From an uncultured Pseudomonadota bacterium (GTDB lineage Bacteria; Desulfobacterota; Syntrophorhabdia; Syntrophorhabdales; Syntrophorhabdaceae): a stretch of DNA of 48,900 nt. Below the pieces are notes generated by a model that saw only the letters and a list, made by a program, of their open reading frames with translations, made no database searches and was not told the DNA's origin. The translations under genes were made by a program, and so were the position numbers. How positions within the stretch are numbered: position 1 is the stretch's first letter; each line of letters starts with the position of its first letter. The stretch spans positions 1 to 48,900 of the forward strand of contig CALMFJ010000013.1 in assembly GCA_937862865.1 (NCBI GenBank), read 5' to 3'. Of this stretch, positions 3,188 through 32,853 are shown in pieces.

Positions 3188-3250
3188 GTGCGGCCTCCGT
3201 CACGTAAGTATATTGCGCGGTTCACGAAAAGTAAAGCGGCCGCGACGCCC

Positions 3251-5916: not shown

Positions 5917-5966
5917 CACACCCGTACCCTTGTTATAGACCCTACCACGCAAACAAACCACAAAAA

Positions 5967-11824: not shown

Positions 11825-13582
11825 TTAGCCCGGCAGAATCTTGCCGTCCACGGCACTCCGCTTAAAGTAATGTGTATGGAGAAGTTTGTGGGCCTTCTCC
11901 GAATTCGGTTTCTCAAGAAATTTTTCGTATGCCGCCTGTACCTCGGGGTTCTCGTGCGAACGCCTCATCGGCAGGCTCCTGTCCTCTGCGTAAAGGGATT
12001 CGCCGCGCCGTGCGCGTTTCGCCATATTGCTGCCCCATGACTGGCCGCCGCCGCCCACGCACCCTCCGGGGCAGGCCATGACTTCGATGAACTGGTACTC
12101 GGACTTGCCGTCCTTACGCATCTGGTCCTGCACCTTCTCGAGCAGGGCCCTTGCGTGGCCGCAGCTGTGCGCGACGGCAACCTTCACCTTTGTTCCCTCG
12201 ATATCTATTTCGGCCTCTTTTATCCCTTTGAGGCCCCTGACCGGCGTGATCTCGACATCCTCCAGTTCCTTCCCGGTGACAAGCGCGTAGGCGCTCCTGA
12301 CGGCCGCTTCCATAACGCCGCCCGTCGCACCGAAGATGGTGGCTGCACCCGTGTACTCGCCCAGGATCGGATCGGCGTGCTCATCGGGCATTTCGTTCAT
12401 ATCGATGCCCGCTTCACGCATCATCCTGCCTATCTCGCGGGACGTGAGGACGTAGTCGACATCCCGGTACCCGCTGGCGTTCATCTCGGGCCTTAAGCAC
12501 TCGAACTTCTTCGCCGTGCAGGGCATGATCGAAACGGAAACGATCTTCGCAGGATCGATCCCTTTCTCTTTCGCATAGTATGTCTTGGCAAGCGCGCCGA
12601 ACATCTGCTGCGGCGATTTTGCCGTTGACATGTGGGGTATCATGTCGTGGAAAAATGTTTCCATGAACTTTATCCACCCCGGGCTGCAGGATGTTATGAG
12701 CGGCAGGTTCTTACCGGAGGTAAGCCTGCTGATAAGCTCCGTCCCCTCCTCCATGATGGTCAGGTCGGCGGCAAAGTTCGTGTCGAGGACGGCGTCAAAG
12801 CCCATTCTCCTCAACGCCGCATGCATCTTGCCGCTCACGAGCGTCCCGACAGGCATGCCGAACTCTTCGCCGAGCATGACGCGGACGGCGGGGGCCTCCT
12901 GCACCACAACAAACTTATCGGGATCATGGAGCGCTTCCCAGACCTCCTCCGTCGCACTTCTCTCATACAATGCGCCAACGGGGCAATGGACAACGCACTG
13001 GCCGCAATTGATGCAGACACTGTTGCCGAGCCCCGCGTCGAAGGCGGTCGAGATGAGCGTCTCCGATCCCCTGTGATTAACGGCAAGGGCATTGACGGTC
13101 TGGACCTGGCTGCAGACCGTGAGGCACCGCCCGCAGAGTATGCACTTGTTCGGGTCCCGGACGATCGCCACGCTTGAATGGTCGATCGGGTGCTTTTTCC
13201 TGGATTCATTCTTGTAGTCGACCGTGTTGATGCCCACCGTCGCCGCGAGCTGCTGCAGCTCGCAATTGTTGTTCTTGACGCACGTCAGGCAGCTTGTATC
13301 GTGGTCCGACAGGATGAGTTCCACGAGCTGCCTCCGTGTCGCCTGGATCCTCGGTGTGTGCGTCTTTATCTTGAAGCCTTCACCGATGGGGGTCATGCAC
13401 GCCCTTTTTAAGCCCGGCAGGCCTTCTATCTCGACAACACAGATACCGCACTGCCCCCCCGGCGGAAGGTCGGGATGATTGCACAGCGTAGGTATCGTAA
13501 AGCCCGCTTTTTTTGCCGCCCAGAGTATCGTCGTACCCTCGGGCACCTCTATCTCAACATTATTAATTGTCGCTCTTATCAT
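11825..13582 (-). CDS. hydA: [FeFe]-hydrogenase catalytic subunit, HndD/HydA type (copy 2)
   Basis: A 585-residue HydA with the same layout as copy 1: [2Fe-2S] domain (IPTLCNHP...GQCGIC), His/Cys3 motif (HDTSCLTCVKNNNC), two [4Fe-4S] clusters (CILCGRCLTVC and CINCGQCVVHC), and the H-cluster domain. Its motifs are TSCSPGW (again Ser in place of the second Cys), MPCTAKKFE and EVMACPGGCVGGGGQS. In the operon it follows a NuoF that has lost its N-terminal cluster ligands. Copies 1 and 2 are clearly related but not near-identical, so the duplication is not recent. Confidence 0.95.
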   Translation of the reverse strand: MIRATINNVEIEVPEGTTILWAAKKAGFTIPTLCNHPDLPPGGQCGICVVEIEGLPGLKRACMTPIGEGFKIKTHTPRIQATRRQLVELILSDHDTSCLTCVKNNNCELQQLAATVGINTVDYKNESRKKHPIDHSSVAIVRDPNKCILCGRCLTVCSQVQTVNALAVNHRGSETLISTAFDAGLGNSVCINCGQCVVHCPVGALYERSATEEVWEALHDPDKFVVVQEAPAVRVMLGEEFGMPVGTLVSGKMHAALRRMGFDAVLDTNFAADLTIMEEGTELISRLTSGKNLPLITSCSPGWIKFMETFFHDMIPHMSTAKSPQQMFGALAKTYYAKEKGIDPAKIVSVSIMPCTAKKFECLRPEMNASGYRDVDYVLTSREIGRMMREAGIDMNEMPDEHADPILGEYTGAATIFGATGGVMEAAVRSAYALVTGKELEDVEITPVRGLKGIKEAEIDIEGTKVKVAVAHSCGHARALLEKVQDQMRKDGKSEYQFIEVMACPGGCVGGGGQSWGSNMAKRARRGESLYAEDRSLPMRRSHENPEVQAAYEKFLEKPNSEKAHKLLHTHYFKRSAVDGKILPG

Positions 13583-13610: not shown

Positions 13611-15200
13611 TTACACCGCTGCCGGTACCCGGCCGTACACTTCATCTTTAAAGTATTTGAGGGCACTGGAGATCGGAAGGTTCAGGGACTGCCCCAGGGG
13701 GCAGAACGACGTGTCCCGCATTACCTCCGATATCTTGACCATTTTTTCAATATCCCCGGCCTTTCCCTTGCCGTCGGCGATCTGGTCGATTATCTCGACA
13801 AGCTCCTTCGTGCCAAGGCGGCACGGGACACAATGGCCGCACGATTCGTGCTTGAAGAAGTGAAGCACGCTCTGCAGCATATCGACGATATCCGTGTGTT
13901 CGTCCATGACAAGGATCGCGCCGGAACCGAGGACTGCCGCATATTCCCTGAGATTGACAAAATCCATCTGCGCATCGAGCATCTCGGGCCCCAGGAAGGC
14001 ACCTGCTGCCCCGCCGACGAGCGCGCCTTTGAACTGCTTGCCGGCCTTAATGCCGCCCGCATATTCATAAATGATATCGCGGAGCGTCGTGCCCATTTCG
14101 GCTTCGATAAGCCCCGGGGTCGCGACATTCCCGATGATGGTGTAGACCTTCGTGCCGGGGCACTTCTCAGTCCCGTATCCCCGGTACCACGCCGCGCCAT
14201 GGCGGATGATCTCCGGCACGTTTGCCAGCGTCTCCACGTTATTGACGACGGTCGGTTTCCCCCACAGGCCCTCAGTCACCGGGTATGGCGGCTTGTTGCG
14301 GGGATGGCCCCTCTTGCCCTCGAGCGATTCGATAAGCGCCGTCTCCTCGCCGCACACATAGGCGCCTGCGCCTTTCATCACGGCAAGGTCAAAACTGAAG
14401 CCGCTCTCGAGGATGTTATCGCCGAGGATCCCGTAGTCCCGGGCCTGCTGAATGGCCTTTTCGAGGCGTTCGATAGACAGGGCATATTCGCCGCGGATGT
14501 AGATGAAGCCCTTCGAGCCGCCAAAGGCGTATGCCGCGAGCATCATGCCCTCGATCAGCTTGTGCGGGTCGCCTTCAAGGATCAGCCTGTCCTTGAACGT
14601 CCCCGGCTCGCCTTCGTCGGCGTTGCAGATGATATATTTCGGCTGGCCGGGAGCCCTGCTCGCAAAGTCCCATTTCATGCCGGTCGTGAACGCGGCGCCG
14701 CCCCTGCCCACAAGGCCGGAATCTTTGACCTCTTTTATGACACCGGCCGGTTTGAGTTCGGTGAAGGCCCTTTCGATCGCCTCATACCCGCCGGCCGCTA
14801 TATACTCGTCGATATTCTCAGGATTGATCACGCCGCTGTTTTTGAGCACGATCCGGGGCTGTTCCTTCAAAAGGCCTGTCTTCCCCTTGCGGATGACCTG
14901 CTGCTTCGGCATCTCGGTCATCATAAGCCGCTTGACAGGCCGCCCTTTGAGAAGGTGCTCCTCAACGATCTCGTGAGCATCTTCGGGCGCAACGTTCGCA
15001 TAGTAAAGCCCCTCGGGGTACACAACGATCACAACGCCCTGTCCCGTGGCGCCTATACTGCCCGTCTCGAGTACGGCTATTTCGCCCGCAAGGCCCTGCT
15101 TGCCGATCTCGTCGACCAGCGCCTTCTCGACGGCCCTGGCTCCCGCCATGATGGTTCCTGCGTCAATGCTGATCAGTACGTGGTTTCTTACGAGGTTCAT
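13611..15200 (-). CDS. hydB: NuoF/HydB-like flavoprotein lacking both terminal Fe-S domains' ligands
   Basis: NADH-binding flavoprotein subunit, 529 residues. The core is intact: GRGGAAFTTGMKW, CNADEGEPGTF, GAGAYVCGEETALIES, ESCGHCVPC and FCPLGQ. The N-terminal thioredoxin-like domain keeps its fold pattern, but all four cluster cysteines are gone. Aligned with copy 1 they read Ser, Thr, Ser, Thr (HVLISIDAGTIMAG and ETGSIGATGQG). The protein stops soon after the core, so the C-terminal two-cluster ferredoxin domain of ordinary HydB is also missing. Its ATG overlaps the nuoE stop (ATGA, 15200-15197). With fewer clusters it may make a simpler NADH-linked enzyme; this is inference. Confidence 0.92.
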   Translation of the reverse strand: MNLVRNHVLISIDAGTIMAGARAVEKALVDEIGKQGLAGEIAVLETGSIGATGQGVVIVVYPEGLYYANVAPEDAHEIVEEHLLKGRPVKRLMMTEMPKQQVIRKGKTGLLKEQPRIVLKNSGVINPENIDEYIAAGGYEAIERAFTELKPAGVIKEVKDSGLVGRGGAAFTTGMKWDFASRAPGQPKYIICNADEGEPGTFKDRLILEGDPHKLIEGMMLAAYAFGGSKGFIYIRGEYALSIERLEKAIQQARDYGILGDNILESGFSFDLAVMKGAGAYVCGEETALIESLEGKRGHPRNKPPYPVTEGLWGKPTVVNNVETLANVPEIIRHGAAWYRGYGTEKCPGTKVYTIIGNVATPGLIEAEMGTTLRDIIYEYAGGIKAGKQFKGALVGGAAGAFLGPEMLDAQMDFVNLREYAAVLGSGAILVMDEHTDIVDMLQSVLHFFKHESCGHCVPCRLGTKELVEIIDQIADGKGKAGDIEKMVKISEVMRDTSFCPLGQSLNLPISSALKYFKDEVYGRVPAAV

Positions 15201-15655
15201 ATCTCTTTTCTCCTCTGGTCAAGGATGGAGTCGACCTTCTCAGCCGTGAGATTGCCGAACATCTCATCATTTAGCATCATGGCCGGCGCAACACCGCACG
15301 CACCAAGGCAGCTTGTGGTTTCCAGCGTGAACACGCCGTCTTTCGTCGTGCCTCCAACATCAACTTTGAGCGAGGTTTTCAGGTAATCGAGAAGCGACCT
15401 GGCCCCCATGAGATGGCATGGCGGGGATTCGCACAACCGGATGATGTTCTTCCCGCGCGGTTTGAGACTGAACATGGTGTAAAAACTCGCGACACTGTGA
15501 ACATAGCTATAAGGAACATTCAGGTACTCCGCACAGACCTCGATATCTTCTTTGGCCAGGTACCTCTGCGGGTTATTGTCCTGAAGATCGTGCATGATAT
15601 AGAGAATGTTGCTCAGGTTAGGTTCAAACTTCTTAAGAATAGCTTCTCTGTCCAA
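15197..15655 (-). CDS. NuoE/HydC-like [2Fe-2S] subunit (copy 2)
   Basis: A 152-residue NuoE-type subunit. All four ligands are kept (LCESPPCHLMG and SCLGACGVAPAM), in contrast to the Cys-less domains encoded on both sides of it. It overlaps the following NuoF gene by ATGA, which indicates coupled translation and a direct protein partnership. It follows the HndB-like gene by 20 bases. Confidence 0.92.
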   Translation of the reverse strand: MDREAILKKFEPNLSNILYIMHDLQDNNPQRYLAKEDIEVCAEYLNVPYSYVHSVASFYTMFSLKPRGKNIIRLCESPPCHLMGARSLLDYLKTSLKVDVGGTTKDGVFTLETTSCLGACGVAPAMMLNDEMFGNLTAEKVDSILDQRRKEI

Positions 15656-15675: not shown

Positions 15676-16026
15676 TCAGATAGCAAACTCTGATACGGGC
15701 TGCCCGTTAACGACATGTTCCACGACCACCCTTTTTGCCTTTTCCGGATCCATATTGCCATAGACAACGGCAGGCTTACTCTCCTCAAACACCTCGACCA
15801 TCGGCTCCTGTGAAGCCAGGCCCTTTTCGCCTGTCTGCGTGACGACAACATCCGTCAGGTTCCTCTTCCCCACCTCTTCGACGAACGTCTTGAGGACATC
15901 CCGTGCGCCGGCTGCGATCCCGCTCGTGCCCATTCCGACAACGATCCTGATCCTGGCCTGCTTTTGCCTCAGTTCGACATCTTTCTGCGCTTTTTCCCTT
16001 ATTTTTTTCAGCTCTTCAAGATTCAT
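15676..16026 (-). CDS. HndB-like thioredoxin-fold protein without cluster cysteines
   Basis: A 116-residue protein with an N-terminal helical segment (residues 1-25) and a thioredoxin-like ferredoxin fold similar to the HndB subunit of NADP-reducing hydrogenases. The places that should hold [2Fe-2S] ligands read VGMGTSGIAAGA and TQTGEKGLASQEP, so no cysteine remains anywhere in the protein. A strong AGGAGG lies before the ATG. It is probably a structural subunit of the hydrogenase encoded just downstream, since it can hardly carry a Cys-ligated cluster. Confidence 0.85.
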   Translation of the reverse strand: MNLEELKKIREKAQKDVELRQKQARIRIVVGMGTSGIAAGARDVLKTFVEEVGKRNLTDVVVTQTGEKGLASQEPMVEVFEESKPAVVYGNMDPEKAKRVVVEHVVNGQPVSEFAI

Positions 16027-16063: not shown

Positions 16064-16594
16064 TCACAGATGTTCGTCAAGATAATTGCTCAAGAATCCA
16101 ATGACTTCCGGGTGATTGAGCGGCACCCCGTCAAGCTCTCTGCGCCACTCGGCGGTGTCGAGGAGAAAGTCTTTCCCGTCGACCGCGTAGCGCAGGTCAA
16201 AATCGATCTCCGGGTGGCTCACGATGAGCACAAAGAACGTGTCCCGGATGTTGCCGAGAGGCGGCAGGTCCGGGTGCCGCGAATCAAAGGTCGCCGTGAT
16301 GCTTGTACCGGCCCCCTTTTCGCTCGTAAGCGCAAATGACCCGCCGGTCGTCTCAGCCGTGCCTTTCAATAGGGGTATCCCGAGCCCCACCTTTCTTCCC
16401 GTTTTTGTCGAGAAGAACGGGTCCTGGACCTTCTGTGCCATTTCAGCATCCATACCGCGGCCGTCATCGGAGACCGAAAGGCTCATGATGGCCGTCTGCG
16501 GATCCTTCGCGATGGTTATCGCTATATGTTTTGCTCCGGCTGTCACTGAATTCATCACTATATCCATAATGTGGGATGAAAGGTCCTCCATCAT
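16064..16594 (-). CDS. GHKL-type ATPase (histidine-kinase-like ATP-binding domain)
   Basis: A 176-residue protein with a Bergerat ATP-binding fold. MDIVMNSVTAGA is the N-box, SDDGRGM is the G1 box, TKTGRKVGLGIPLLKG is the region of the ATP lid and G2 box, and GTSIT fits G3. There is no phospho-acceptor dimerisation domain, so it is not a complete sensor kinase. A C-terminal extension of about 60 residues is unassigned. Such ATPases recur in hydrogenase operons of clostridia and syntrophs, but their role there is not established. It lies between the PHP and HndB-like genes. Confidence 0.85.
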   Translation of the reverse strand: MMEDLSSHIMDIVMNSVTAGAKHIAITIAKDPQTAIMSLSVSDDGRGMDAEMAQKVQDPFFSTKTGRKVGLGIPLLKGTAETTGGSFALTSEKGAGTSITATFDSRHPDLPPLGNIRDTFFVLIVSHPEIDFDLRYAVDGKDFLLDTAEWRRELDGVPLNHPEVIGFLSNYLDEHL

Positions 16595-16622: not shown

Positions 16623-17357
16623 TCAAGCCCGCATATTCCTTTCGCCCATGCGCTTCAAGGCGCTTTCGATGCCTGCGCAATCGGGTGCGTCCATTGTCAG
16701 GACTGTCCGCCTTTTCCCGATATCGTCCGGATAGTGCGCATCGGAGAAGGTCACGAACGGTATACCCCGTTTCATTATAAAAGGGGCAAGCTCGCCGGCC
16801 CTCTCGATATTGCGGACCTCCAGGGCATCGAGGGCGATGCCCTCCGGGATAAAGCCCAGCTGGCTGATTATGCTGAACGTGGGGCTGTCTATATGCGATG
16901 CGATCGCAATGCCTCCATGCGCCTTTATCCAGGACGCCGCTTCCTCGACCGGGATGGCGGCCGAGTTGATCAGCAGCCGGTCCTCCATCCGGACGATGTT
17001 ATCCTCCGCGTCGACGACAACCTGGTCGCCCCAGAACTCCGCATCATTGGGAACGTCGGGCAAAAGGTCGTAGATCATCGACTGCATCTCGCGGGCCCGG
17101 CCATAATCATCGAAGACAGCGATAAGGTGGATCTCCTCCTGCGTCTGCAGCTCCATGCCGGCGAGGACGACGAGCCCCAGGCGCTCGCCAAGCTCCTTCA
17201 CATACGGCGTATTTTCGGTCATGTTGTGATCGGTCACCGCTATAATATCGAGCCTCGCTTCCCTTGCCTTCTCGACGATGACCCTTGGCGACATGTCAAG
17301 GCTCCCGCACGGCGACAGGATAGAATGTATATGCAGGTCACAGGCAAAATCACGCAA
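16623..17357 (-). CDS. PHP-domain metal-dependent phosphoesterase-like protein
   Basis: A 244-residue PHP protein. Metal-binding motifs are visible in order: DLHIHS near residue 8, VTDHN near 41, a Glu in GMELQ, IASHID, and SDAHYPDDIG. PHP proteins hydrolyse phosphoesters with two or three metal ions. The substrate of this operon-embedded type is unknown. Its start overlaps the end of the upstream DRTGG gene by 8 bases, so the two are likely translated together. A dedicated role in hydrogenase regulation or assembly is inferred only from context. Confidence 0.88.
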   Translation of the reverse strand: MRDFACDLHIHSILSPCGSLDMSPRVIVEKAREARLDIIAVTDHNMTENTPYVKELGERLGLVVLAGMELQTQEEIHLIAVFDDYGRAREMQSMIYDLLPDVPNDAEFWGDQVVVDAEDNIVRMEDRLLINSAAIPVEEAASWIKAHGGIAIASHIDSPTFSIISQLGFIPEGIALDALEVRNIERAGELAPFIMKRGIPFVTFSDAHYPDDIGKRRTVLTMDAPDCAGIESALKRMGERNMRA

Positions 17358-17700
17358 CCCCCCGTCCTCGCTTCATCTCGTTGTATGTCGATGCGGAAAG
17401 CTCGAACGCGGACTGCGCCCCTCTCAGCACCGCTATCCCTTCCTCTTTCGCCTTGTTCAGGAACGCCTCTTCGAGACCGAGGTTCCGCGGTATTATGATC
17501 GCCGAAACGTCCTTGAGCTTCGCGACACCGAGAATATTGACATGACGCTGTATCGTGATCCACACGGCATCATCCCCGATATTGGCAATAACGTCGGAAA
17601 GCAGGTCCGATGTGTACCCTGAACCCACCTGCCTGTCGAGATTGATATCTCCCGTAAGTATCTCGAGGCCGAGGGTCCCGGCGAGTTCTTTAACGGTCAT
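17350..17700 (-). CDS. DRTGG-domain protein (copy 1)
   Basis: A 116-residue stand-alone DRTGG-type domain, starting MTVKELAGTLGLEILTGD and containing SDLLSDVIANIGDDAVWITIQ, typical of the family. DRTGG domains occur next to CBS domains and in phosphotransacetylase-like proteins and are thought to be ligand-binding. No catalytic residues are evident. It overlaps the PHP gene. A more divergent second copy opens the operon at 19962. Confidence 0.85.
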   Translation of the reverse strand: MTVKELAGTLGLEILTGDINLDRQVGSGYTSDLLSDVIANIGDDAVWITIQRHVNILGVAKLKDVSAIIIPRNLGLEEAFLNKAKEEGIAVLRGAQSAFELSASTYNEMKRGRGVA

Positions 17701-17762: not shown

Positions 17763-19124
17763 CTAATGCCCGTCTGAATTGGGCCCGTTCTTTTTCGACC
17801 CGTCACTCATCGACGGCGGGACGATGCGCGCAAGGTCAAGGATCTCTTCCGCGAGCGTCTTGACCTTTTCCCGGAGCTTGATGACGCAATCCGACTCGTA
17901 GGCTATGCCCCGGATGATGTCCTCGGCGAGCGCACGGCAGTTCGGCGACCCGCAGGCGCCGCAGTCGAGCCCCGGCAGTTCGTTCGTTATCTGATCGAGC
18001 CGCTCCATCTTCATAAGGGCACGCGAAACATCCTCATCGAGGGTCATGATCGCCCTTGGCTCGATGGGCTCCGTAGAGCGGAACCGGTCGTCCCGGCACA
18101 GCGCCGAAAGCTCTTCTTCCGTAAAATACCGCTCCCGGGAACCGAACCTCTTGATAAGGTCGCGAAGCCGTATCCTTCCCACGAACAGGTTCTGAATGTT
18201 CAAGGGGCCGCCGACGCACCCGCCGGTGCATGCCTGGAGCTCGACGAAATCGACGTCCTTCAGCTCGCCCCTCTCTATCTCCTCGAGAAGGCTGATGACG
18301 TTGTGGATCCCGCTGACCGCGAGCGTCGTCGAGACTGCGATATTGTGCGATTCCCCGGTGACATAGCCCCATGCCATGCCCAGTCTCGTGGCGCGCTGGA
18401 GATTCTCGGTCGCCCCGCTCAGGTTCCTGTCCCCAAGGTGCTTTATAATGTCCTTATATATAAGGTTGACCCCTATGACACCGTCGACTGCAGAGGTTTT
18501 CGTTGTCATCGGGTTTCTCATCTCGGTGACCTTGGCCGGGCAGGGAGATATGAAGAACGCCCCTATTTCCTCGTACGGGATGCCGATCCTGCGTGCCGCA
18601 TCTTCCTTCGCGAGCCGTGCGGCAACTTCCATGGGCGTCAGGAATGGCGCGACCTGCTCGAGAAGTTCCGGGTATTTTATCTGCATGAGGCGCAGCACCG
18701 CCGGGCATGCCGAAGAGAATATGGGCCGTTTGCCCTTGTAATGCGCCAGGTACTCATGGACGGCATGGCCAACGATCTCCGCGGCAAGCGCAACCTCGAA
18801 CACCTCGTCAAACCCTATCCCGGCAAACGCGGCGAGCACGTCCTCGATATTGACCTGCTCCTTGAACTGGCCGAAAAAGGAGGGGGCCGGGAGCGCTATG
18901 TTGTAGTAGTAGTCCGACAGCTTCTCGAGCGTGTCCGTCACGGCCACTTTTGCGTGGTTGGGACATTCCCGGATGCATTCGCCGCAATCGATGCAGCGCT
19001 CCTGAACGATCAGCGCCTTGCCGTCACGCACCCGGATCGCCTCGACCGGGCAGCGCTTGATGCAGTTTGTACAACCCTTGCATTTTTCCTTATCAAGGGT
19101 GACGGAGTGAAAATACTGTTTCAT
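17763..19124 (-). CDS. Sensor-type [FeFe]-hydrogenase-like protein (no PAS domain)
   Basis: A 453-residue protein. Two [4Fe-4S] ferredoxin motifs (CKGCTNCIKRC, CIDCGECIREC) precede a divergent H-cluster domain with SSACPAVL, SPCPAKVTE and LQACTGGCVGGP. A CGACGSPNC cluster motif follows near residue 400. In the first H-motif the Cys that relays protons in catalytic enzymes is Ala, as reported for putative sensory hydrogenases. It overlaps the RsbW-like ATPase gene by ATGA. An H2- or redox-sensing role coupled to that ATPase is inferred. It could instead be a low-activity enzyme. Confidence 0.88.
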   Translation of the reverse strand: MKQYFHSVTLDKEKCKGCTNCIKRCPVEAIRVRDGKALIVQERCIDCGECIRECPNHAKVAVTDTLEKLSDYYYNIALPAPSFFGQFKEQVNIEDVLAAFAGIGFDEVFEVALAAEIVGHAVHEYLAHYKGKRPIFSSACPAVLRLMQIKYPELLEQVAPFLTPMEVAARLAKEDAARRIGIPYEEIGAFFISPCPAKVTEMRNPMTTKTSAVDGVIGVNLIYKDIIKHLGDRNLSGATENLQRATRLGMAWGYVTGESHNIAVSTTLAVSGIHNVISLLEEIERGELKDVDFVELQACTGGCVGGPLNIQNLFVGRIRLRDLIKRFGSRERYFTEEELSALCRDDRFRSTEPIEPRAIMTLDEDVSRALMKMERLDQITNELPGLDCGACGSPNCRALAEDIIRGIAYESDCVIKLREKVKTLAEEILDLARIVPPSMSDGSKKNGPNSDGH

Positions 19125-19591
19125 GTATCCTCAACGGCCTTCTTCTCGTTCCTGAAAAAGACCTTTGCCTCGAGGTTTGTGCCGACGCCCACTTTCGATT
19201 CTATGGACAGGCCATCGGAACATTGCTTTATGTTCGAGAGCCCCATGCCGGCCCCGAAACCCATTTCCCGGATCTCGTAGGTCGCCGTCGAATAGCCTTC
19301 CTTCATCGCAAGGTCGATATCTTCTATGCCCGCCCCGATATCCTGTGTCAGGATCGTTATCGCATCAGGATCGACGTGGACGATAAGCCGTCCCGAGGTA
19401 GCATGAATGGCGACATTCATTGCCGCCTCGTATATGATGATCGCGATCCGCTTGATAACGTCCTGTTTGAGCCCGAGTTGCTGAAGCGTCTTCTTAACAC
19501 GGGAGGCACACTCCCCGGCAATAAAAAAGTCTTTTTCACCAATCTCAAATTCAAGCGTGATCTTCGGTGTATACGTTAAACTATCGACCAT
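19121..19591 (-). CDS. RsbW/SpoIIAB-like ATP-binding regulator
   Basis: A 156-residue GHKL ATPase of the anti-sigma-factor type. IYEAAMNVAIHA is the N-box, TQDIGAGIEDI the G1 box and GFGAGMGLSNI the G2 box. Anti-sigma kinases of this group work by partner switching with STAS proteins and PP2C phosphatases. No STAS protein is encoded here, but a PP2C-like gene lies in the neighbouring operon (29517). It overlaps the sensor hydrogenase start by ATGA, so the two are probably made together. Confidence 0.87.
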   Translation of the reverse strand: MVDSLTYTPKITLEFEIGEKDFFIAGECASRVKKTLQQLGLKQDVIKRIAIIIYEAAMNVAIHATSGRLIVHVDPDAITILTQDIGAGIEDIDLAMKEGYSTATYEIREMGFGAGMGLSNIKQCSDGLSIESKVGVGTNLEAKVFFRNEKKAVEDT

Positions 19592-19611: not shown

Positions 19612-19962
19612 CTAATGTTTCTCCCCCCGCACCCCGTTCTCATAAAGCCTGCCGCAGCAATCAAATGTGAGGAGCGGCGTGGTGAGAAGAGGTATCTTAT
19701 TCTGTTCCCCGCTGGCGATGACCGACGGGTCCGGCCTCCGGCCCCCGACAAAAAGGATGGATTTCGCATCCATTACCTGTGCTGTATGAATGACATGGGC
19801 ATTCGTCAGAGAGGTGATCAGAAGGGAGTGGGGCTTGAGGTACAGCAGCATCTCACTGATGAGATCACAGGCAAAACAGATCCGTACCTCGCGCTGGAGG
19901 CACTCGTCGTCCCCGCAAAGTATGTTTGCTTCGAGAAGCGTCTGGACTTCCTTCAACGTCAT
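19612..19962 (-). CDS. DRTGG-like protein (copy 2), first gene of the hydrogenase operon
   Basis: A 116-residue protein of the same length and general pattern as the DRTGG protein at 17350, starting MTLKEVQTLLEANILCGDD and containing CDLISEMLLYLKPHSLLITS. It is much more divergent and has several cysteines. It is the first gene downstream of the operon promoter and is preceded by a leader of about 130 bases. GAGG lies 8 bases before the ATG. Function unknown; ligand binding is likely. Confidence 0.8.
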   Translation of the reverse strand: MTLKEVQTLLEANILCGDDECLQREVRICFACDLISEMLLYLKPHSLLITSLTNAHVIHTAQVMDAKSILFVGGRRPDPSVIASGEQNKIPLLTTPLLTFDCCGRLYENGVRGEKH

Positions 19963-20163: not shown

Positions 20164-21720
20164 TTAATTGCTGCTCCGGGCCCGCGCCTTCCTGCCGAAT
20201 GGTATTCCCAGTTTCCGCATACGATGGCGCAGCGTCCCGGGATTCATTCCCAGGATATCCGCGGCACCCCCCTGTCCCTCTATCTTGCCCCCGGCGGTCT
20301 CGAGAACACGGCGGATATGGTCCGCTTCGACATCCCTGAGCGCCACCACGGACAGGTCCGCACCCAAGACCGGTGCGGCTATCCCCCGTCCCGATTTCGA
20401 AACACCCAGGAGGCCGTCGAACTTCAACGGTTTCCCGTCCGACAGGATGAGGGCCCTCTCCACGGCATTTTCGACCTCCCTGACATTCCCCGGCCAGTCG
20501 TACATCATAAGCGCGTCGATTGCCCCGGGAGCGAGGACGGGAACGGTGTGCCGGACCATTTCACGGCTCTTTTTACGGATGAAATGCTGGACAAGCGCCG
20601 GTATGTCGTTTTTTCGGGTCCTTAAGGGCGGTACATCGATGGGGAAAACCTTGATACGAAAATACAGGTCACCCCGGAAATCACCCTGTTCGACCATTTT
20701 TTCAAGGTTCCTGTTCGTTGCGGAGATGATCCGGATATCGACCTTGACGGGCTCGGTCCCGCCCACCCGCTCGATCTCTTTTTCCTGGAGCACGCGCAAG
20801 AGCCTTACCTGGGCATGGGGAGGCAGCTCGCTGATCTCATCGAGGAATATGGTGCCGCCGTGGGCACGTTCGAAGCGCCCCCTCTTGCGGGCGAGCGCAC
20901 CGGTGAAAGCCCCTTTTTCGTGGCCGAAGAGCTCGCTGTCGATCAGCGATTCCGGTATCGCCCCGCAGTTGACCTTGACGAACGGCCCGTTGTACCGCGG
21001 GGACAGGTTGTGTATCGCGTTCGCGATGACCTCTTTCCCTGTTCCCGTCTCGCCGATAAGGAGAACGGGGCTCGACAGGGGGGCGACCTTGCGGACGTCT
21101 TCCATAACGTCTTTCAAACCAAAGTCCGCACCAACGATCTCGACACTGTTCTTGCGAAGCTCGTCGCGCAGGTAGCGGTTGTCATCCGCCAGCATGTCCT
21201 TGAGGTCGATCACCTCGCGAAGCCGGCGGCTGTTGGCAAGAGCGATCGCGGCCGGTTCATTGACGAGCGACCACAGCCGCACATGGTCTTCGTTATACCG
21301 GCCGGTGCCGGCCGATCTGACGCCGAGCGCCCCGATGTACTTCCCGTCGATGATGAGCCTGCCGAGCATCATCGAGCAAAGCCCCCACCCGACATTCCTC
21401 GCTATCCTGCCCAGTATCGGGTCGTCAAACACATTATCAGCCACCCGGACACGGGGGTGCCGGTACGCTTCTTCTATCTCCTGCCGGAGCTCCGGGGGAA
21501 GATGGGTCTTGTCCGTACGGGTAAGGCCCCCGGAGGCATTCGCCGTTGTCACGACATCTATCGTTCCCAGCGCAGGGTCATAGGTAATGAGGTCGAGGTC
21601 GTCGGCCGGCATGATGGTACTGACATACAGGAAACACTGCCAGAGGGCCTTCTCCAAATCAAGGGTCCCGCAGATCCTTAACGTAAGTTCTCGAAAGAAT
21701 TCGTTTTCGTCGGCTATCAT
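20164..21720 (-). CDS. Sigma-54-dependent activator with GAF-like sensor domain (FhlA/NtrC family)
   Basis: A 518-residue enhancer-binding protein. Residues 1-165 look like a GAF-type sensor. The AAA+ domain follows with GETGTGKE (Walker A), the sigma-54 contact loop GAFTGA, GGTIFLDEI (Walker B) and RIISATNRNLE. A Fis-type helix-turn-helix is at the C-terminus (LGMNPGTLRHRMRKLGI). The frame extends to 21780, but AGGAG lies 5 bases before the ATG at 21720, so that start is chosen. It lies upstream of the hydrogenase operon in the same direction and is divergent from a gene with a -24/-12 promoter, its likely target. Confidence 0.93.
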   Translation of the reverse strand: MIADENEFFRELTLRICGTLDLEKALWQCFLYVSTIMPADDLDLITYDPALGTIDVVTTANASGGLTRTDKTHLPPELRQEIEEAYRHPRVRVADNVFDDPILGRIARNVGWGLCSMMLGRLIIDGKYIGALGVRSAGTGRYNEDHVRLWSLVNEPAAIALANSRRLREVIDLKDMLADDNRYLRDELRKNSVEIVGADFGLKDVMEDVRKVAPLSSPVLLIGETGTGKEVIANAIHNLSPRYNGPFVKVNCGAIPESLIDSELFGHEKGAFTGALARKRGRFERAHGGTIFLDEISELPPHAQVRLLRVLQEKEIERVGGTEPVKVDIRIISATNRNLEKMVEQGDFRGDLYFRIKVFPIDVPPLRTRKNDIPALVQHFIRKKSREMVRHTVPVLAPGAIDALMMYDWPGNVREVENAVERALILSDGKPLKFDGLLGVSKSGRGIAAPVLGADLSVVALRDVEADHIRRVLETAGGKIEGQGGAADILGMNPGTLRHRMRKLGIPFGRKARARSSN

Positions 21721-21744
21721 CAGGTCTCCTGCCACGAATGTGTG

Positions 21745-21762
21745 ACTATCGTATGCGATAGT
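21745..21762. promoter_or_regulatory. Inverted repeat ACTATCG-N4-CGATAGT at the activator promoter
   Basis: Perfect 7-bp arms overlap the -10 box of the activator's own candidate promoter, a position suited to autoregulation. Confidence 0.45.
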
Positions 21763-21788
21763 ATATGGTAAAACTGACAAATATGCCA
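21760..21788 (-). promoter_or_regulatory. Candidate promoter of the sigma-54 activator gene
   Basis: On the minus strand TGGCAT (21788-21783) and TATACT (21765-21760) are 17 bases apart. The -10 box is good and the -35 box weak. Confidence 0.4.
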
Positions 21789-22664: not shown

Positions 22665-22702
22665 TTTATCGATATTAATTTATAGATATCGCATTATCGA
22701 AT
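22653..22702. promoter_or_regulatory. TCGATA-rich operator region of rex
   Basis: Perfect 8-bp inverted repeat ATTCGATA (22653-22660) and TATCGAAT (22695-22702), with TATCGATA (22667-22674) and GATATC (22685-22690) between. The cluster covers the -10 box and the expected start site. Autorepression by Rex is plausible, but the motif does not match the usual TTGTGA-type Rex site. Confidence 0.45.
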
Positions 22703-22718
22703 ACCATGGAGGCCTGAC

Positions 22719-23426
22719 ATGCCAAAGGTCGAAGCCCCGAAGGACCCGGTGATCAAAGCCATTCCCGAACCCACTCTGAGAAGGCTCCCGCTTTACTATC
22801 AATACCTGAAAAAGATCCGGGATGAGAAGAAAAGCGATTTCATATCGTGTACACAGATCGGCAACGCCCTCTCCATTCTTCCGATCCAGGTGCGCAAGGA
22901 CCTCGGCGTCACCGACGCGGTGGGCAAGCCGAAGCTCGGGTACTCCATCGACGAGCTCATCGCGATCATCGAGGATTTCCTTGGATGGAACAACACGAAG
23001 GACGCATACCTCGTCGGGGTCGGGCACCTGGGGACGGCCCTGCTCGGCTTTGAAAGGTTCAAGGAATACGGCCTCAACATAATAGCCGCGTTCGACATCG
23101 ACAGGGAAAAGGTCGGGAGCACGATCCACGGCGTGAAGGTCTTCCACATCGGAAAGCTCGACAACATGGTCAAGAGAATGGGCATCAAGATCGGGATCCT
23201 CACCGTCCCGTCGGCGCCCGCACAGGACCTGACGAACGAGATGGTGCACGCCGGCATAGAGGCCATCTGGAACTTTTCCCCGGTGAAGGTCGCGGTCCCG
23301 CCGGACATCATTGTCCAGCACGAGAACCTGGCGTCGTCCCTCGTTGTGCTTTCGAAGAAACTGACACTGGCAAGAACAACTCAATCGCAGGATGGGGTGA
23401 ATAATGGAAACGATAAGAAAATTTGA
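22719..23426 (+). CDS. rex: Redox-sensing transcriptional repressor Rex
   Basis: Rex senses the NADH/NAD+ ratio and represses fermentation and hydrogenase genes when NADH is low. The 235-residue protein has an N-terminal winged helix (RLPLYYQYLKKI, SCTQIGNAL, IQVRKDL) and a Rossmann domain with VGVGHLGTALLGFE near residue 92, followed by AFDIDREKVG. The C-terminal helix for domain swapping (NLASSLVVLSKKL) is present. AGG lies before the ATG. Its 3' end overlaps the next nuoE by 23 bases, so Rex heads and probably controls the NuoEF-HydA-sensor-phosphatase-ligase operon. Confidence 0.95.
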   Translation: MPKVEAPKDPVIKAIPEPTLRRLPLYYQYLKKIRDEKKSDFISCTQIGNALSILPIQVRKDLGVTDAVGKPKLGYSIDELIAIIEDFLGWNNTKDAYLVGVGHLGTALLGFERFKEYGLNIIAAFDIDREKVGSTIHGVKVFHIGKLDNMVKRMGIKIGILTVPSAPAQDLTNEMVHAGIEAIWNFSPVKVAVPPDIIVQHENLASSLVVLSKKLTLARTTQSQDGVNNGNDKKI

Positions 23427-23910
23427 ACGAGTATTCGAGATCATCGACCAGAACCAGAGGAGCGCCGCACGGCTCATACCTATCCTTCAGGCGGTACAGG
23501 CGGAATACCGGTACCTGCCCGAAGAGATATTGACGTTTGTCGCAACATCGCTCGGCATATCGCCGGCAAGGGTCTTCGGGGTAGCGACATTTTATTCCCT
23601 GTTTACCTTAAAACCAAAGGGTAAATACCTTATCCGCGTCTGCAACGGGACCGCCTGCCACGTGAAGGGATCGATGGGCCTGTATGGCGCCATCGTGAAG
23701 AAACTCGGTCTGAAGGAAGGTGAAGACTCCACCTCCGACATGCTCTTCACGGTCGAAACGGTGAACTGCCTTGGCGCCTGCGGGCTCTCCCCCGCGATGG
23801 TCATCAACGATGAGGTATACGGTCAGCTGACGCCTCAGAGGGTGTCCGACATAATCGACGAGATCGTTCTTAAGGAGGCTCACAATGAATCTGATGCTCA
23901 CGGGGCTTAA
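23404..23910 (+). CDS. NuoE/HydC-like [2Fe-2S] subunit (copy 3)
   Basis: A 168-residue NuoE-type subunit with ligands in CNGTACHVKG and CLGACGLSPAM and the expected helical N-terminal half. It overlaps rex at its start and the NuoF gene at its end (26 bases), indicating tight translational coupling. It likely forms the HydC part of the Rex-controlled hydrogenase. Confidence 0.94.
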   Translation: METIRKFERVFEIIDQNQRSAARLIPILQAVQAEYRYLPEEILTFVATSLGISPARVFGVATFYSLFTLKPKGKYLIRVCNGTACHVKGSMGLYGAIVKKLGLKEGEDSTSDMLFTVETVNCLGACGLSPAMVINDEVYGQLTPQRVSDIIDEIVLKEAHNESDAHGA

Positions 23911-27796: not shown

Positions 27797-29536
27797 ATGT
27801 TCGATATAAAAAAACCGCAAATCGTCTTTACGCTTACCGCCAGGTGCCGCGACTGCTACAGGTGCCTCAGGGCATGCCCCGTAAAGGCGATCCGCATGCA
27901 GAAGGGGCAGGCGTACGTCGACGAGAAACGCTGTATCGCATGCGGGACCTGCATCCGGGAATGTCCGCAGCAGGCTAAGACATTCAGGAATGATATCGAT
28001 ATCGCGAAACGCCTCATCGACGAAGGCCATTTCGTCGCAGCGAGCATCGCGCCGTCCTTTGCGGCGGTCTTTAACAGCTGGCAGCTCTCACGGCTGCCGT
28101 CGGCCCTGCGCGCCCTGGGCATCCGGTATGTCGGGCAGACATCCCACGGCGCCTATCAGGTGTCCCTTCAGTCAAGGCGCATCGCAGAGGAAAAGACCGA
28201 GGGCGGCCCGCATATAGCGACTGCCTGCCCGGCCCTGATAAACTATATAGAGAAATACCGGCCCCAGCTTGTCAAGCATCTCCTGCCGCTCGTCTCCCCG
28301 ATGGCCGCCCATGCACGTCTCTTGAGGGAAAAGCTCGGACAGGATATCAAGGTCATCTTCATAGGGCCCTGTGTCGCGAAAAAATCGGAGCTGACAAGGC
28401 CCGAGGTCCAGGGCGTTGTGGACTGCGTGCTTACGTTCAAAGAACTCAATCAATGGTTTGCCCAGAGGGGCATCGACCTGTCTATGTGTGAAGAGAGCAA
28501 CTTCGATGAGAAACCGGTCCATGAGGCACAGTTGTACCCTTTGCCGGGCGGCCTTATCAAAACGGCGGGGCTTGAAGACGACGGCCTGAACCTGAAACTC
28601 CTCAAGGTGGACAGTATCCAGGGCGTCCGCGAGCTCTTGAACGGGATCGAAGAGGGCTCGGACCACGCGATCATCGAACCTCTTTTCTGCAGCCAGGGGT
28701 GCATCAACGGTCCGGGCGTAGACCCCGGGAAGAACCTCTTCGAGCGCAGGCGCGACCTCATAGAGTATCACAATTCGATAAGCTCGACCGCCATCACGCC
28801 CGAGCCCGCGGACGGGAGCCTTTTCACGGCATCGTTCGGCAAAGCGGATAGCGGCCCGTCTCCCCTCGACGTAACCGAGGAAGAGATACAGAAGATCCTT
28901 GCCCAGACGGGCAAACAGGACCCCGAGCAGCAGCTCAACTGCGGGGCGTGCGGGTACGACAGCTGCCGCGAAAAGGCGATAGCGGTCGCCCTTGGCATGG
29001 CGGAACCGGAAATGTGCATACCGTACATGCGCCGGCTCGCGGAGAGGCGCACGGACCAGATATTCGGGACGACCCCGAACGGGGTCATCATGCTTGACGA
29101 CGAGCTCAACATCATCGGAATGAACCCGGCGTTCAAGAAATTCTTCTCGTGCAGCGACGTGATACTGGGCCGGCACATATCGTACCTCATGGACCCGGCC
29201 CCGTTCGAGAAGCTGATATCCGGCCAGGAAGAGACCCTTGACATCACCATCTTCCACCGTCCCTACAACCTCCTGTGCAGGGAGCTCCTCTACATGCTCA
29301 AGGACGAGAGGCAGATCGTCGGCATCTTTATCAACATAACGAGCCAGCAGGAACACGAAAAGAAATTGAAGGAGATCCGTTCCCAGACTGTCGAGCAGGC
29401 GCACGAGCTCCTCGAGCACCAGATAAAGATGGCGCAAAAGATCGCGCAGTTCCTCGGGGAGAGCACTGCCCGCGGTGAGGAACTTGTCAGAAAACTTATG
29501 AGCCTGAGCGAGGGAGATGAAACCAGCCCCCGATGA
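27797..29536 (+). CDS. Sensor-type [FeFe]-hydrogenase with PAS domain
   Basis: A 579-residue protein: two ferredoxin clusters (CRDCYRCLRAC, CIACGTCIREC), an H-cluster domain (ATACPALI, GPCVAKKSE, FCSQGCINGPG), a CGACGYDSC cluster, a PAS domain at about 425-535 (RTDQIFGTTPNGVIMLDDELNIIGMN) and a C-terminal coiled coil. The proton-relay Cys of catalytic enzymes is Ala, as in putative sensory (HydS) hydrogenases. It overlaps the PP2C phosphatase gene by 20 bases. The expected role is H2 or redox sensing with output through the PAS/coiled-coil to the phosphatase. That output path is inferred. Confidence 0.92.
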   Translation: MFDIKKPQIVFTLTARCRDCYRCLRACPVKAIRMQKGQAYVDEKRCIACGTCIRECPQQAKTFRNDIDIAKRLIDEGHFVAASIAPSFAAVFNSWQLSRLPSALRALGIRYVGQTSHGAYQVSLQSRRIAEEKTEGGPHIATACPALINYIEKYRPQLVKHLLPLVSPMAAHARLLREKLGQDIKVIFIGPCVAKKSELTRPEVQGVVDCVLTFKELNQWFAQRGIDLSMCEESNFDEKPVHEAQLYPLPGGLIKTAGLEDDGLNLKLLKVDSIQGVRELLNGIEEGSDHAIIEPLFCSQGCINGPGVDPGKNLFERRRDLIEYHNSISSTAITPEPADGSLFTASFGKADSGPSPLDVTEEEIQKILAQTGKQDPEQQLNCGACGYDSCREKAIAVALGMAEPEMCIPYMRRLAERRTDQIFGTTPNGVIMLDDELNIIGMNPAFKKFFSCSDVILGRHISYLMDPAPFEKLISGQEETLDITIFHRPYNLLCRELLYMLKDERQIVGIFINITSQQEHEKKLKEIRSQTVEQAHELLEHQIKMAQKIAQFLGESTARGEELVRKLMSLSEGDETSPR

Positions 29537-30686
29537 ACCGAGAAAATATGTCGAGACCGTAAATTCGCAGGCGGCGAAGAAGCCGGGCGGGATATGCGGC
29601 GACTATATTATAACCGAGAGAACGGCCGAGGCGACGACGACGGTCCTCGCGGACGGTATCGGTACCGGCATCAAGGCGCACGTCGCGGCCGTCATGTGCG
29701 CATCCCGGCTCATGGAGCTCCTGCGCGTGGGTTTTACCCTTCGCGAGACATGCCGGAAGATCATCGACACCATGCACGCCGCCCGCACGACCGACATCCC
29801 TTTTTCCGCCTTTTCCGTGTGCCGTGTCCTCGTAAGCGGCCACGCCACGGTCATGTCATACGAGATACCGTCGCCGGTCCTCATAAACAACCGGCTGGCT
29901 GCGTACCTCCCCAAACAGAGGGTCTTCCCGATGGGGCTCGAGATGATAGGCGAGGTCAACTGCATGCTGGAGTACGGCGACGGGATCATAATGGTCAGCG
30001 ACGGTGTGAGCCAGGCGGGCCTCGGTCAGCAATACCGGATGGGGTGGGGCATTGAGGGCGCCTGCGATTTCATCAACGGACTTCTCGCACAGGGGACGCG
30101 GATACGGGACATTCCGAAAAAGGTCGTCGGAAACGTCCGCGACATATCCGGGACCACGTACGGGGATGACACGAGCTGCAGCCTTCTGTTGTGCCGCGAG
30201 GCGCAGGTCCTCAATGTTCTTACGGGGCCCCCGGCGCGAAAAACGAGCGATGAGAAGGTAGTGAAAGAATTCGTTGCGATGCGGGGCATGAAGGTCGTCT
30301 GCGGGTCTTCCACCTCGGAGATTGTCGCCCGCAGCCTCGGAAGGCCCATCGAGATCAAGACGATCTCCAACGCATACCACAAGCCGCCTTCCTATTACAT
30401 AAAAGGGATCGATTATGCGACAGAGGGCGCGATAACCCTCAACCAGGTCTACAACATCCTGGGGGAGGCGCCGGAGAAACTTGAGCCCGATTCGTCCGTT
30501 TCCGACCTGTACAGGTTCTTTCATGCCGCCGACACGATAAATTTTCTCGTCGGGACCGCGGCGAACACAGGGCATGAACATATCGTGTTCAGGCAGATGG
30601 GGATTTTCCCCCGCGAGGTGATCGTCAAGCTGCTCGCGGAAAGACTGAAGTCCATGGGAAAGCTTATCAATATCATATATGTATGA
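29517..30686 (+). CDS. SpoIIE/PP2C-type protein phosphatase
   Basis: A 389-residue protein. An N-terminal PP2C-like domain (about 1-215) has the metal-binding motifs LADGIGTGIKA, VSDGVSQAG and YGDDTSCSLL. A C-terminal domain of about 170 residues (VVCGSSTSEIVARSLGRP and following) has no family I can name. SpoIIE-type phosphatases usually dephosphorylate STAS anti-anti-sigma factors. It is translationally overlapped with the PAS-hydrogenase, as in known sensor hydrogenase/phosphatase pairs, and may act as its output. Its substrate is not visible in the window. Confidence 0.9.
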   Translation: MKPAPDEPRKYVETVNSQAAKKPGGICGDYIITERTAEATTTVLADGIGTGIKAHVAAVMCASRLMELLRVGFTLRETCRKIIDTMHAARTTDIPFSAFSVCRVLVSGHATVMSYEIPSPVLINNRLAAYLPKQRVFPMGLEMIGEVNCMLEYGDGIIMVSDGVSQAGLGQQYRMGWGIEGACDFINGLLAQGTRIRDIPKKVVGNVRDISGTTYGDDTSCSLLLCREAQVLNVLTGPPARKTSDEKVVKEFVAMRGMKVVCGSSTSEIVARSLGRPIEIKTISNAYHKPPSYYIKGIDYATEGAITLNQVYNILGEAPEKLEPDSSVSDLYRFFHAADTINFLVGTAANTGHEHIVFRQMGIFPREVIVKLLAERLKSMGKLINIIYV

Positions 30687-30743: not shown

Positions 30744-32321
30744 ATGACAACAGGATTACCCGTCGATTTCTTCAACGCGGCCGATTATTTCGTGGACCGC
30801 AATATTCGCCAGGGACGGGGACATAAGATCGCCGTCTACACCGAGTACCGGCATTACACCTATAATGACATCCAGAAAATGACCAATAAGACCGCCAATG
30901 CGTTCCGCGAGGTTGGAATGACCGTGGACGACCGGATCATGATGATCATGCTCGACGTCCCTCAATTCTATGCCGTATTCTGGGGGGCCATACAGATAGG
31001 GGCCGTTCCTATCCCCGTCAACACAATGCTGACGCCCGAGGATTATGAATACTATCTGAACGATTCCCGGGCAAAGGTCCTTGTTATATCCGAGCAGCTT
31101 CTCCCGGTCCTCGCGAAGATCAAGGGCGACCTTTTATATCTCAGGGACCTCATCGTGATATCCGAGGTGCAGGGTGCCCATATCCCCTTCAAGCAGAAGT
31201 ACCGCCATGCATCGAGCGTCGTCAAAACAGAATACACAACGAAAGATGACGTGGGGTTCTGGCTTTACAGTTCCGGCTCGACCGGTTCACCGAAAGGGGC
31301 CATTCATTCCCAGTACGATATGGTCGTGACCTCGGAATCTTTCGCCAGGGGCGTCCTTGGCATAAAGGAGGACGATATAGTCTTTTCGGCGGCCCGCCTT
31401 TTTTTCTCCTACGGCCTCGGCAACGGGATGTACTTCCCGATGTCCGTCGGCGCCTCGGCCGTCCTCAATGTCAACGCGCCGAGCCCCGAAAATGTCTTCA
31501 GACATCTCGAGAAGTTCCGCCCGACCATATTCTTCGGCGTCCCGACGTTGTACGGCCAGATGCTGGAATATAAGGCGAGGCAGGACAAAGAGGCCGGGCG
31601 CGAGGGCAATCCCAACGATCAGCATGAGCTTTCCTCCGTACGGATATGCGTTTCCGCCGGTGAGGCATTACCGACCGACATCTTCGACCGGTGGAAAAAG
31701 CGCTTCGGGATCGAGATCATTGACGGCATCGGCTCGACCGAGATGCTCCATATCTTTTTGAGCAACCGTCCCGGCGACATAAGGCCCGGCTCCACAGGAA
31801 AGCCTGTCCCGGGATACGAGTTGAAGCTTGTCGACGAGAACGGGCAGGAGGTGCCCCGCGGAGAGATCGGCACGCTGCACGTGAAGGGCGACAGCGCCGC
31901 GCAGCAATACTGGCGCAAGCGTGAAAAGACCAAGATAACCATGCAGGGTGAGTGGGTCAACACGGGTGACAAATACTATATCGACGAAGAAGGTTATTAC
32001 TGGTGCGCCGGACGCGCCGACGACATGCTGAAGGTCGGCGGGATCTGGGTATCGCCCCTTGAAGTGGAGAACACCCTGAGCCAGCACCCTGCCGTGTTCG
32101 AATGCGCCGTCGTCGGGGCACCCGACGAAAAGGGCCTGACCAAACCCAAAGCGTTCGTCCTGCTCAGGGACGGCCACGGACCCTCGGATGCCCTCAAGGA
32201 AGAACTGAAACAATGGGTGCTCGACAGGCAGGCCAAGTTCAAATACCCCCGCTGGATAGAATTTGTCGATGAATTGCCTAAAAGCTCAACGGGGAAGATA
32301 CAACGGTTCAGATTGAGATAA
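30744..32321 (+). CDS. Benzoate-CoA ligase-like aryl-CoA ligase
   Basis: A 525-residue AMP-forming ligase that would activate an aromatic acid to its CoA thioester with ATP, the entry step of anaerobic aromatic degradation. The AMP-binding loop YSSGSTGSPKG is near residue 173, IGSTEMLHIFLSNRPGD near 330, then STGKPVPGYELKLVDE, the YYWCAGRADDMLKVGG hinge, and SSTGKIQR with the catalytic Lys at the end. The overall sequence resembles benzoate-CoA ligases; the exact acid (benzoate or hydroxybenzoate) cannot be read. GAGGAGG lies before the ATG. It closes the Rex operon and ends in a hairpin of heptamer repeats. Confidence 0.88.
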   Translation: MTTGLPVDFFNAADYFVDRNIRQGRGHKIAVYTEYRHYTYNDIQKMTNKTANAFREVGMTVDDRIMMIMLDVPQFYAVFWGAIQIGAVPIPVNTMLTPEDYEYYLNDSRAKVLVISEQLLPVLAKIKGDLLYLRDLIVISEVQGAHIPFKQKYRHASSVVKTEYTTKDDVGFWLYSSGSTGSPKGAIHSQYDMVVTSESFARGVLGIKEDDIVFSAARLFFSYGLGNGMYFPMSVGASAVLNVNAPSPENVFRHLEKFRPTIFFGVPTLYGQMLEYKARQDKEAGREGNPNDQHELSSVRICVSAGEALPTDIFDRWKKRFGIEIIDGIGSTEMLHIFLSNRPGDIRPGSTGKPVPGYELKLVDENGQEVPRGEIGTLHVKGDSAAQQYWRKREKTKITMQGEWVNTGDKYYIDEEGYYWCAGRADDMLKVGGIWVSPLEVENTLSQHPAVFECAVVGAPDEKGLTKPKAFVLLRDGHGPSDALKEELKQWVLDRQAKFKYPRWIEFVDELPKSSTGKIQRFRLR

Positions 32322-32325
32322 GACA

Positions 32326-32407
32326 GGCGATGGGCTATGGGCTATAGGCAATGGGGGAATTTTCCCGGTTTTCCCATAGCCCATCGCCCATAGCCCATCG
32401 CCTTTTT
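32326..32407. repeat. Heptamer-repeat hairpin B1, likely terminator
   Basis: Starts 4 bases after the ligase stop. The left arm is made of 7-base units (GGCGATG, GGCTATG, GGCTATA, GGCAATG). The first 17 bases (32326-32342) pair perfectly with 32386-32402, and a T run follows. It lies between convergent genes. The same design with a different sequence occurs at 40685-40768. Confidence 0.8.
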
Positions 32408-32415
32408 TCCATCAC

Positions 32416-32853
32416 TCACTTACCCGCTTTTTCCTTATTTATCACTTCCACGTTGAATGTTATCGTTTTTACCGGGGGGTTGTCTTTTTCCCATGGGCGC
32501 CGATAGTGAAAGGTAAGGCTTTCTTTGCCGACCGACCGTGCGGTGAATTCAAAATGCTCCCTTCCGGGCGCCCCTGCGAGCGCCGACCGGGGGGCCTCGT
32601 AGCGATGGGAATTGAGGGACACGCAGGACGTCGTCCCCGGGGCCTGCCAGGAATAGCCGGTTGTCGCGTTGGAGTCGAGGATTATGACGAATTTGTCCCC
32701 CTGTTTGACGCGTATCGTCCGGGAAGGATCCGCGAACTCACCAGCCGGCGGCCGATCGGAGGCCTGCAGATCCTCATATGCGCCCTTGTGACCGGAACAC
32801 GCACAGGCCATACAGATCAAAAAACACAAAACAAAGATTAATTTTATTTTCAT
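32416..32853 (-). CDS. Chagasin-like (I42) protease inhibitor lipoprotein
   Basis: A 145-residue secreted protein. It has a hydrophobic signal with a lipobox-like Cys (about residues 14-19, FLICMACAC). The I42 hallmarks are NATTGYSW near residue 62, the GREHFEF loop and YRRPWE near 122, which contact papain-type proteases in the family. The target protease is unknown. It is the first downstream neighbour of the ligase on the opposite strand and ends against hairpin B1. The lipoprotein gene upstream is in the same direction. Confidence 0.85.
   Translation of the reverse strand: MKIKLIFVLCFLICMACACSGHKGAYEDLQASDRPPAGEFADPSRTIRVKQGDKFVIILDSNATTGYSWQAPGTTSCVSLNSHRYEAPRSALAGAPGREHFEFTARSVGKESLTFHYRRPWEKDNPPVKTITFNVEVINKEKAGK

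Follow-up and report, generated by a model that had tools for sequence, protein, structure and literature searches.

Genes at the locus

The window is the whole 48,900-nucleotide stretch of DNA that was analyzed. Its minus strand carries a cassette that is preceded by a sigma-54-dependent (NifA/NorR-like) regulator (20164..21780) and begins with DRTGG1 (19612..19962, 116 amino acids), directly upstream of ATPase1. ATPase1 (19121..19591) is a 156-residue GHKL ATPase with a predicted SpoIIAB fold, and the next gene encodes HydS-D (17763..19124), a 453-residue [FeFe]-hydrogenase of the group D (M2e, TamHydS) type; the coordinates and strand of these two genes agree with the original prediction. 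Downstream of HydS-D, on the same strand, are DRTGG2 (17350..17700, 116 amino acids), a PHP-domain phosphoesterase (16623..17357, 244 amino acids) and a second GHKL ATPase, ATPase2 (16064..16594, 176 amino acids). These are followed by a ferredoxin-like protein of the thioredoxin-fold [2Fe-2S] type (15676..16026), a NuoE/HydC-like subunit (15197..15655), a NuoF/HydB-like subunit (13611..15200) and HydA, a group A-type catalytic [FeFe]-hydrogenase (11825..13582). The ferredoxin-like protein contains no cysteines, while 93% of 44 homologs have Cys at three aligned positions. Its [2Fe-2S] site appears to have been lost in this lineage, with the gene retained.

The minus strand continues after HydA with NuoE, a NuoF-type subunit, HydA, a small frame, an aspartate ammonia-lyase-like (AspA-like) gene, HydF and HydG, the last three spanning 1772-5961. 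The H-cluster maturases HydG and HydF (1772-4489) belong to the same strand and gene cluster, and assembly of the H-cluster is therefore probably possible. The neighboring operon is on the plus strand, outside the ATPase cassette, and encodes HydS-C, a PAS-containing [FeFe]-hydrogenase (27797..29536), and a SpoIIE-type PP2C phosphatase tied to it (29517..30686). A 265-residue minus-strand frame between the two hydrogenase operons (22680-23477) has no family match and may not be a gene.

HydS-D is a group D [FeFe]-hydrogenase

Pfam analysis divides HydS-D into N-terminal ferredoxin-type sites, an H domain and a C-terminal FeS domain (residues 383-414). The Fe_hyd_lg_C match scores 132 bits against a cut-off of 22.1, the Fer4 and C-terminal FeS models also pass, and Pfam gives no PAS match, which bears out the description of this gene product as an H-cluster protein lacking PAS. 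The H-cluster cysteines (C140, C195, C299 and C303) and the C-terminal [4Fe-4S] cysteines (C388, C391, C396 and C413) are invariant in 22 homologs. Ala139 stands where the proton-transfer cysteine is expected. This cysteine is replaced in group D [FeFe]-hydrogenases, mostly by alanine (A137 in TamHydS) (PMC10407848).

The characterized relative is TamHydS from Thermoanaerobacter mathranii (PMC8163306, PMC10407848, PMC13104023). HydS-D shares its domain order, the Cys-to-Ala replacement, the equivalents of E252 and E289, the C-terminal [4Fe-4S] site and the absence of PAS, and both genes lie upstream of a bifurcating hydrogenase and beside a histidine-kinase-like ATPase. A Thermoanaerobacter wiegelii homolog with exact TamHydS numbering (C20, A137, S249, E252, D265, E289, C379) is about 51% identical to HydS-D. 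Residues C21, A139, E258, E295 and C388 of HydS-D match C20, A137, E252, E289 and C379 of this homolog; E258 and E295 correspond to the group D proton path residues E252 and E289. V255 and S271 differ from S249 and D265 of TamHydS. Because the remaining residues match the TamHydS-numbered homolog, identity and residue evidence place HydS-D in group D (M2e). The protein probably senses hydrogen.

ATPase1 has a SpoIIAB-like fold

ATPase1 passes both the HATPase_c and HATPase_c_2 models of Pfam. It had been predicted to be RsbW-like. The NCBIfam scores are 49.9 bits against a cut-off of 135 for SpoIIAB and 20.7 against 145 for RsbW, both below the curated cut-offs, so "SpoIIAB-like" is the more exact term. 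An AlphaFold2 model of ATPase1 (pLDDT 91) has SpoIIAB as its nearest solved structure (Z 18.6, rmsd 2.2, 134 aligned residues), with UsfX (about Z 15) and RsbW (Z 14.8) next. RsbT, considered as the closest relative on the basis of motifs, is absent among the structure and sequence matches listed, though this absence is no proof against it.

Residues E55 and N59 of ATPase1 align with Glu46 and Asn50 of SpoIIAB and are invariant in 120 homologs. D84, G86, G88 and the ATP-lid glycines are likewise invariant. ATPase1 thus resembles the SpoIIAB/RsbW GHKL kinases and anti-sigma factors in its fold and its catalytic Glu/Asn/Asp/Gly residues, and it differs from them in its sub-threshold family scores, its ATP lid, the lack of an adjacent STAS or sigma factor gene and the presence of DRTGG proteins as pair mates. 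The fold and the invariant kinase-type residues support the kinase-like part of the original description. ATPase1 is most likely a serine/threonine kinase.

The predicted ATGA overlap of the two genes was confirmed. The plus strand reads TCAT at 19121-19124, so the coding strand has ATGA there, and the ATPase1 stop codon (19123-19121) overlaps the HydS-D start codon (19124-19122). Of the 70 gaps measured between the two genes, 6 equal -4, and the overlap was rejected as a conserved form of coupling.

The cassette is conserved

The neighborhood of HydS-D was surveyed at 80 named loci, mostly from Clostridia, with flanks of up to 10 kb. The order DRTGG-ATPase1-HydS-D-DRTGG-PHP is found at most of them, and NuoE, ATPase2, the ferredoxin-like protein, NuoF and HydA also belong to the cassette at most loci. 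Among the named loci with sufficient room, an ATPase gene or a fused ATPase is directly upstream of HydS-D at 73 of 75, a DRTGG gene is upstream at 64 of 75 and downstream at 50 of 56, and PHP is present at 47 of 56. The His/Asp/Glu metal-ligand pattern of the PHP protein is invariant in 102 homologs. In the host's family, each of the 26 loci with HydS-D has the order DRTGG-ATPase-HydS-D. Given the 73 of 75 named loci and 26 of 26 family loci, the pairing of ATPase1 with HydS-D does not arise by chance. The nearest named relatives are Syntrophorhabdales MAGs, and a search of viral contigs returned no relative. The sigma-54 regulator precedes the cassette only in the window and in one other genome (G011) among the loci checked.

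The pairing of HydS-D with an ATPase is already known and has been published for Thermoanaerobacter, where genome comparison places the same neighborhood across the genus (PMC3608648). The literature searched, with subscription papers mostly outside its scope, does not discuss the association with DRTGG, the gene fusions or the losses of HydS-D described below, and it mentions DRTGG together with hydrogenase once, in an unrelated context.

DRTGG proteins are recurrent partners of ATPase1

Gene fusions connect the DRTGG proteins to both ATPase1 and HydS-D. DRTGG is fused to ATPase1 at two loci (L070 and L073), and HydS-D is fused to the counterpart of DRTGG2 in four other genomes (L014, L026, L027 and L031). 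One ATPase1-HydS-D fusion was also found (L124), which could be an assembly error. Many genomes of the family carry a second copy of ATPase1, and a DRTGG gene precedes this copy in all five examined. DRTGG-ATPase1 stands as a pair alone at L267, L269 and L265, the last being near a contig end, and at L167 the contig ends just after the pair. The L167 pair (L167:3854-4667, corresponding to about 31850-32670 of G000:C2) comes from the genome that contains the window and is the second DRTGG-ATPase1 pair there.

The cassette also occurs without HydS-D. The fifth of the second-copy loci examined (L264) has DRTGG-ATPase1 with DRTGG2, PHP, ATPase2 and NuoEF and lacks both HydS-D and HydA. Four genomes, all of one genus, cleanly lack HydS-D between ATPase1 and DRTGG2 and keep the rest, and every catalytic residue of ATPase1 is retained. 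In the ATPase tree, the ATPases of these four genomes group together, and the sister branch holds the ATPase of a congener that carries HydS-D; the absence of HydS-D is therefore best read as a loss.

The DRTGG1 model has a clean DRTGG fold. It matches AF1212 (2ioj, Z 17.4), the CBS-DRTGG pyrophosphatase of Clostridium perfringens (3l2b and 3l31, Z 15.1) and the N domain of HPr kinase (1ko7, Z 10.5), and no STAS structure is among the matches listed. Unlike these three proteins, DRTGG1 is free-standing and is linked genetically to a GHKL ATPase. Residues D33, S36 and T50 of DRTGG1 are invariant, and an Asp-x-x-Ser motif plus a Thr are invariant in both the DRTGG1 and DRTGG2 families. The invariant Ser and Thr could accept phosphate or, since adenine nucleotides are ligands of other DRTGG domains such as that of the 3l2b/3l31 pyrophosphatase, could instead contact a nucleotide.

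DRTGG is not an obligatory partner everywhere, since two Spirochaetes loci (L107 and L137) have ATPase1-HydS-D without DRTGG and two other loci have different signaling neighbors. In a Clostridia MAG, a gene judged by eye from its sequence to be CheW-like precedes ATPase1-HydS-D (L081:9065-9990), and in another MAG a large ATPase2-type protein and a response regulator do so (L075:5919-9930).

STAS proteins and the PP2C phosphatase

The original prediction gave each arm of a phosphorylation switch its own H-cluster protein. This pairing holds: ATPase1 goes with HydS-D, and the PP2C adjoins a PAS-type HydS in all 43 loci. HydS-C and its phosphatase match the phosphatase-linked sensory [FeFe]-hydrogenases of HydDB group C3 (PMC5037454), and a similar pair has been described in Ruminococcus albus (PMC6776011). 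HydS-D differs from group C3 in having no PAS domain, no linked PP2C and a location in another operon.

The two pairs are correlated in the host family. Among 39 genomes, 21 have both pairs, 5 have HydS-D only, 2 have the PP2C only and 11 have neither (Fisher p 1.4e-4, with no correction for ancestry). The correlation could stem from both pairs accompanying bifurcating hydrogenases. Each pair also occurs without the other. A full-length PP2C relative is present in 28 of 50 named HydS-D carriers and absent from 22. Many of the genomes surveyed for the two pairs and for STAS proteins are drafts, and absences from them are not final. The PP2C query gave no match at the named HydS-D loci at E 1e-5. 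With the SpoIIE domains of the genome's other PP2Cs as queries, one weak match (L067, 6425-7129, E 8e-5) was obtained within 10 kb at the 80 loci, and the other matches in this flank search for STAS or PP2C partners were response-regulator domains.

STAS proteins were sought in the host genome and its relatives with PF01740 and PF13466. The genome encodes five, as a partner switch would need, but each sits with other partners. Those on contigs C90 and C1 each belong to a STAS-RsbW-PP2C set, the one on C133 is beside a CheA-like gene, the one on C157 is fused to MlaE, and the one on C139 lies inside a 749-residue frame; in the last two cases STAS is joined to, or lies within, a larger protein of membrane-transport type. 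No STAS gene was detected near the cassette at the 80 loci with flanks of up to 10 kb, using three single-sequence queries of limited sensitivity. In a relative with both pairs (G331), the only STAS match is of the MlaE type, and a HydS-D carrier (G375) has no match to PF01740 or PF13466.

A model for signaling by the cassette

Four explanations for the role of ATPase1 were weighed. The original prediction was a cross-operon partner switch in which a STAS protein receives phosphate from ATPase1 and loses it through the PP2C at 29517, with each arm gated by its own H-cluster protein. The kinase-type residues and SpoIIAB-like fold of ATPase1, a SpoIIE-type PP2C 10 kb away, the five STAS proteins of the genome and the correlation of the pairs within the family agree with this scheme. 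It is set against the lack of a detectable STAS gene at any cassette locus, the alternative partners of the genome's STAS proteins, the STAS content of G331 and G375, the separation of the pairs in both directions, including the 22 HydS-D carriers lacking the PP2C, and the recurrence of DRTGG proteins as partners of the ATPase. The cross-operon switch is not strictly refuted, but little is left in its favor; it is not supported, and we consider it very improbable. An anti-activator or anti-sigma-like role has a better, though still small, chance of being correct. ATPase1 would bind a transcription factor such as the sigma-54 regulator at 20164-21780, and HydS-D would set transcription of the hydrogenase operon. 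SpoIIAB is itself an anti-sigma factor, both the window and G011 have the regulator immediately before the cassette in the same orientation, and transcriptional regulation has also been suggested in the literature (PMC8163306). The regulator cannot be a general target, because it is not found beside the cassette in the family members L228 and L230.

ATPase1 might instead be a non-kinase, nucleotide-dependent GHKL scaffold or allosteric subunit; its own nucleotide binding and that of the DRTGG proteins would then, along with HydS-D, tune how NuoEF/HydA assembles or works. Two GHKL ATPases and two DRTGG domains share an operon with the enzyme subunits, and the cassette follows NuoEF even where HydA and HydS-D are missing (L264). 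The invariance of Glu55, the counterpart of SpoIIAB Glu46, in all 120 homologs is what phosphotransfer would predict, and a PHP phosphoesterase with invariant ligands accompanies ATPase1; both observations weigh against a non-kinase role, which is unlikely but the strongest of these three alternatives.

The favored explanation, to which we give about an even chance, is a self-contained cassette in which HydS-D controls the kinase-like ATPase1, a DRTGG protein is the likely substrate and the adjacent NuoEF hydrogenase is the output. The cassette is encoded with the NuoEF-type electron-bifurcating [FeFe]-hydrogenase and would form a regulatory set of its own. By way of the H-cluster and the [4Fe-4S] site at its C terminus, HydS-D would probably inform the adjacent SpoIIAB-fold ATPase of H2 or of the redox state, and it would be an optional input to the switch. 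ATPase1 would act on DRTGG1, DRTGG2 or both, the DRTGG proteins being its most constant partners, with the invariant Ser36 and Thr50 or their equivalents as candidate phospho-acceptors. Removal of the mark could fall to the PHP enzyme encoded in the operon, and the result would be regulation of the adjacent NADH/ferredoxin hydrogenase. The sequences themselves establish what the parts are, their order, the fusions and the persistence of ATPase1 where HydS-D has gone; H2 sensing, kinase activity, the DRTGG target, reversal by PHP and the output are inferred from them.

A broader proposal is offered tentatively, as possible rather than probable. GHKL serine/threonine kinases with a DRTGG rather than a STAS substrate would form a STAS-free switch on NADH/ferredoxin bifurcating complexes, in which the H-cluster protein would supply an exchangeable H2 input and PHP might provide reversal. 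The TamHydS literature asks how "sensory" [FeFe]-hydrogenases of groups C and D transmit their signal. The conserved gene set, the fusions and the genomes that have naturally lost HydS-D name DRTGG1, DRTGG2, PHP and ATPase2 as specific, testable partners and argue against STAS as the first substrate to seek. A DRTGG target, if confirmed, would give SpoIIAB-type kinases a new output, and would do so in many anaerobes that produce H2.

Other sensor-type hydrogenases

The host genome encodes a third sensor-type hydrogenase (G000:C88; L147:1647-5659), a 710-residue H-domain protein fused to HisKA and HATPase_c, and the gene is followed by a response-regulator/PAS/histidine-kinase hybrid. Short HydS-D paralogs of 361-384 amino acids (L231:6043-7197, L232:1166-2293 and L233:2846-3931) are 44-51% identical to HydS-D over residues 2-361 and lie away from any cassette.
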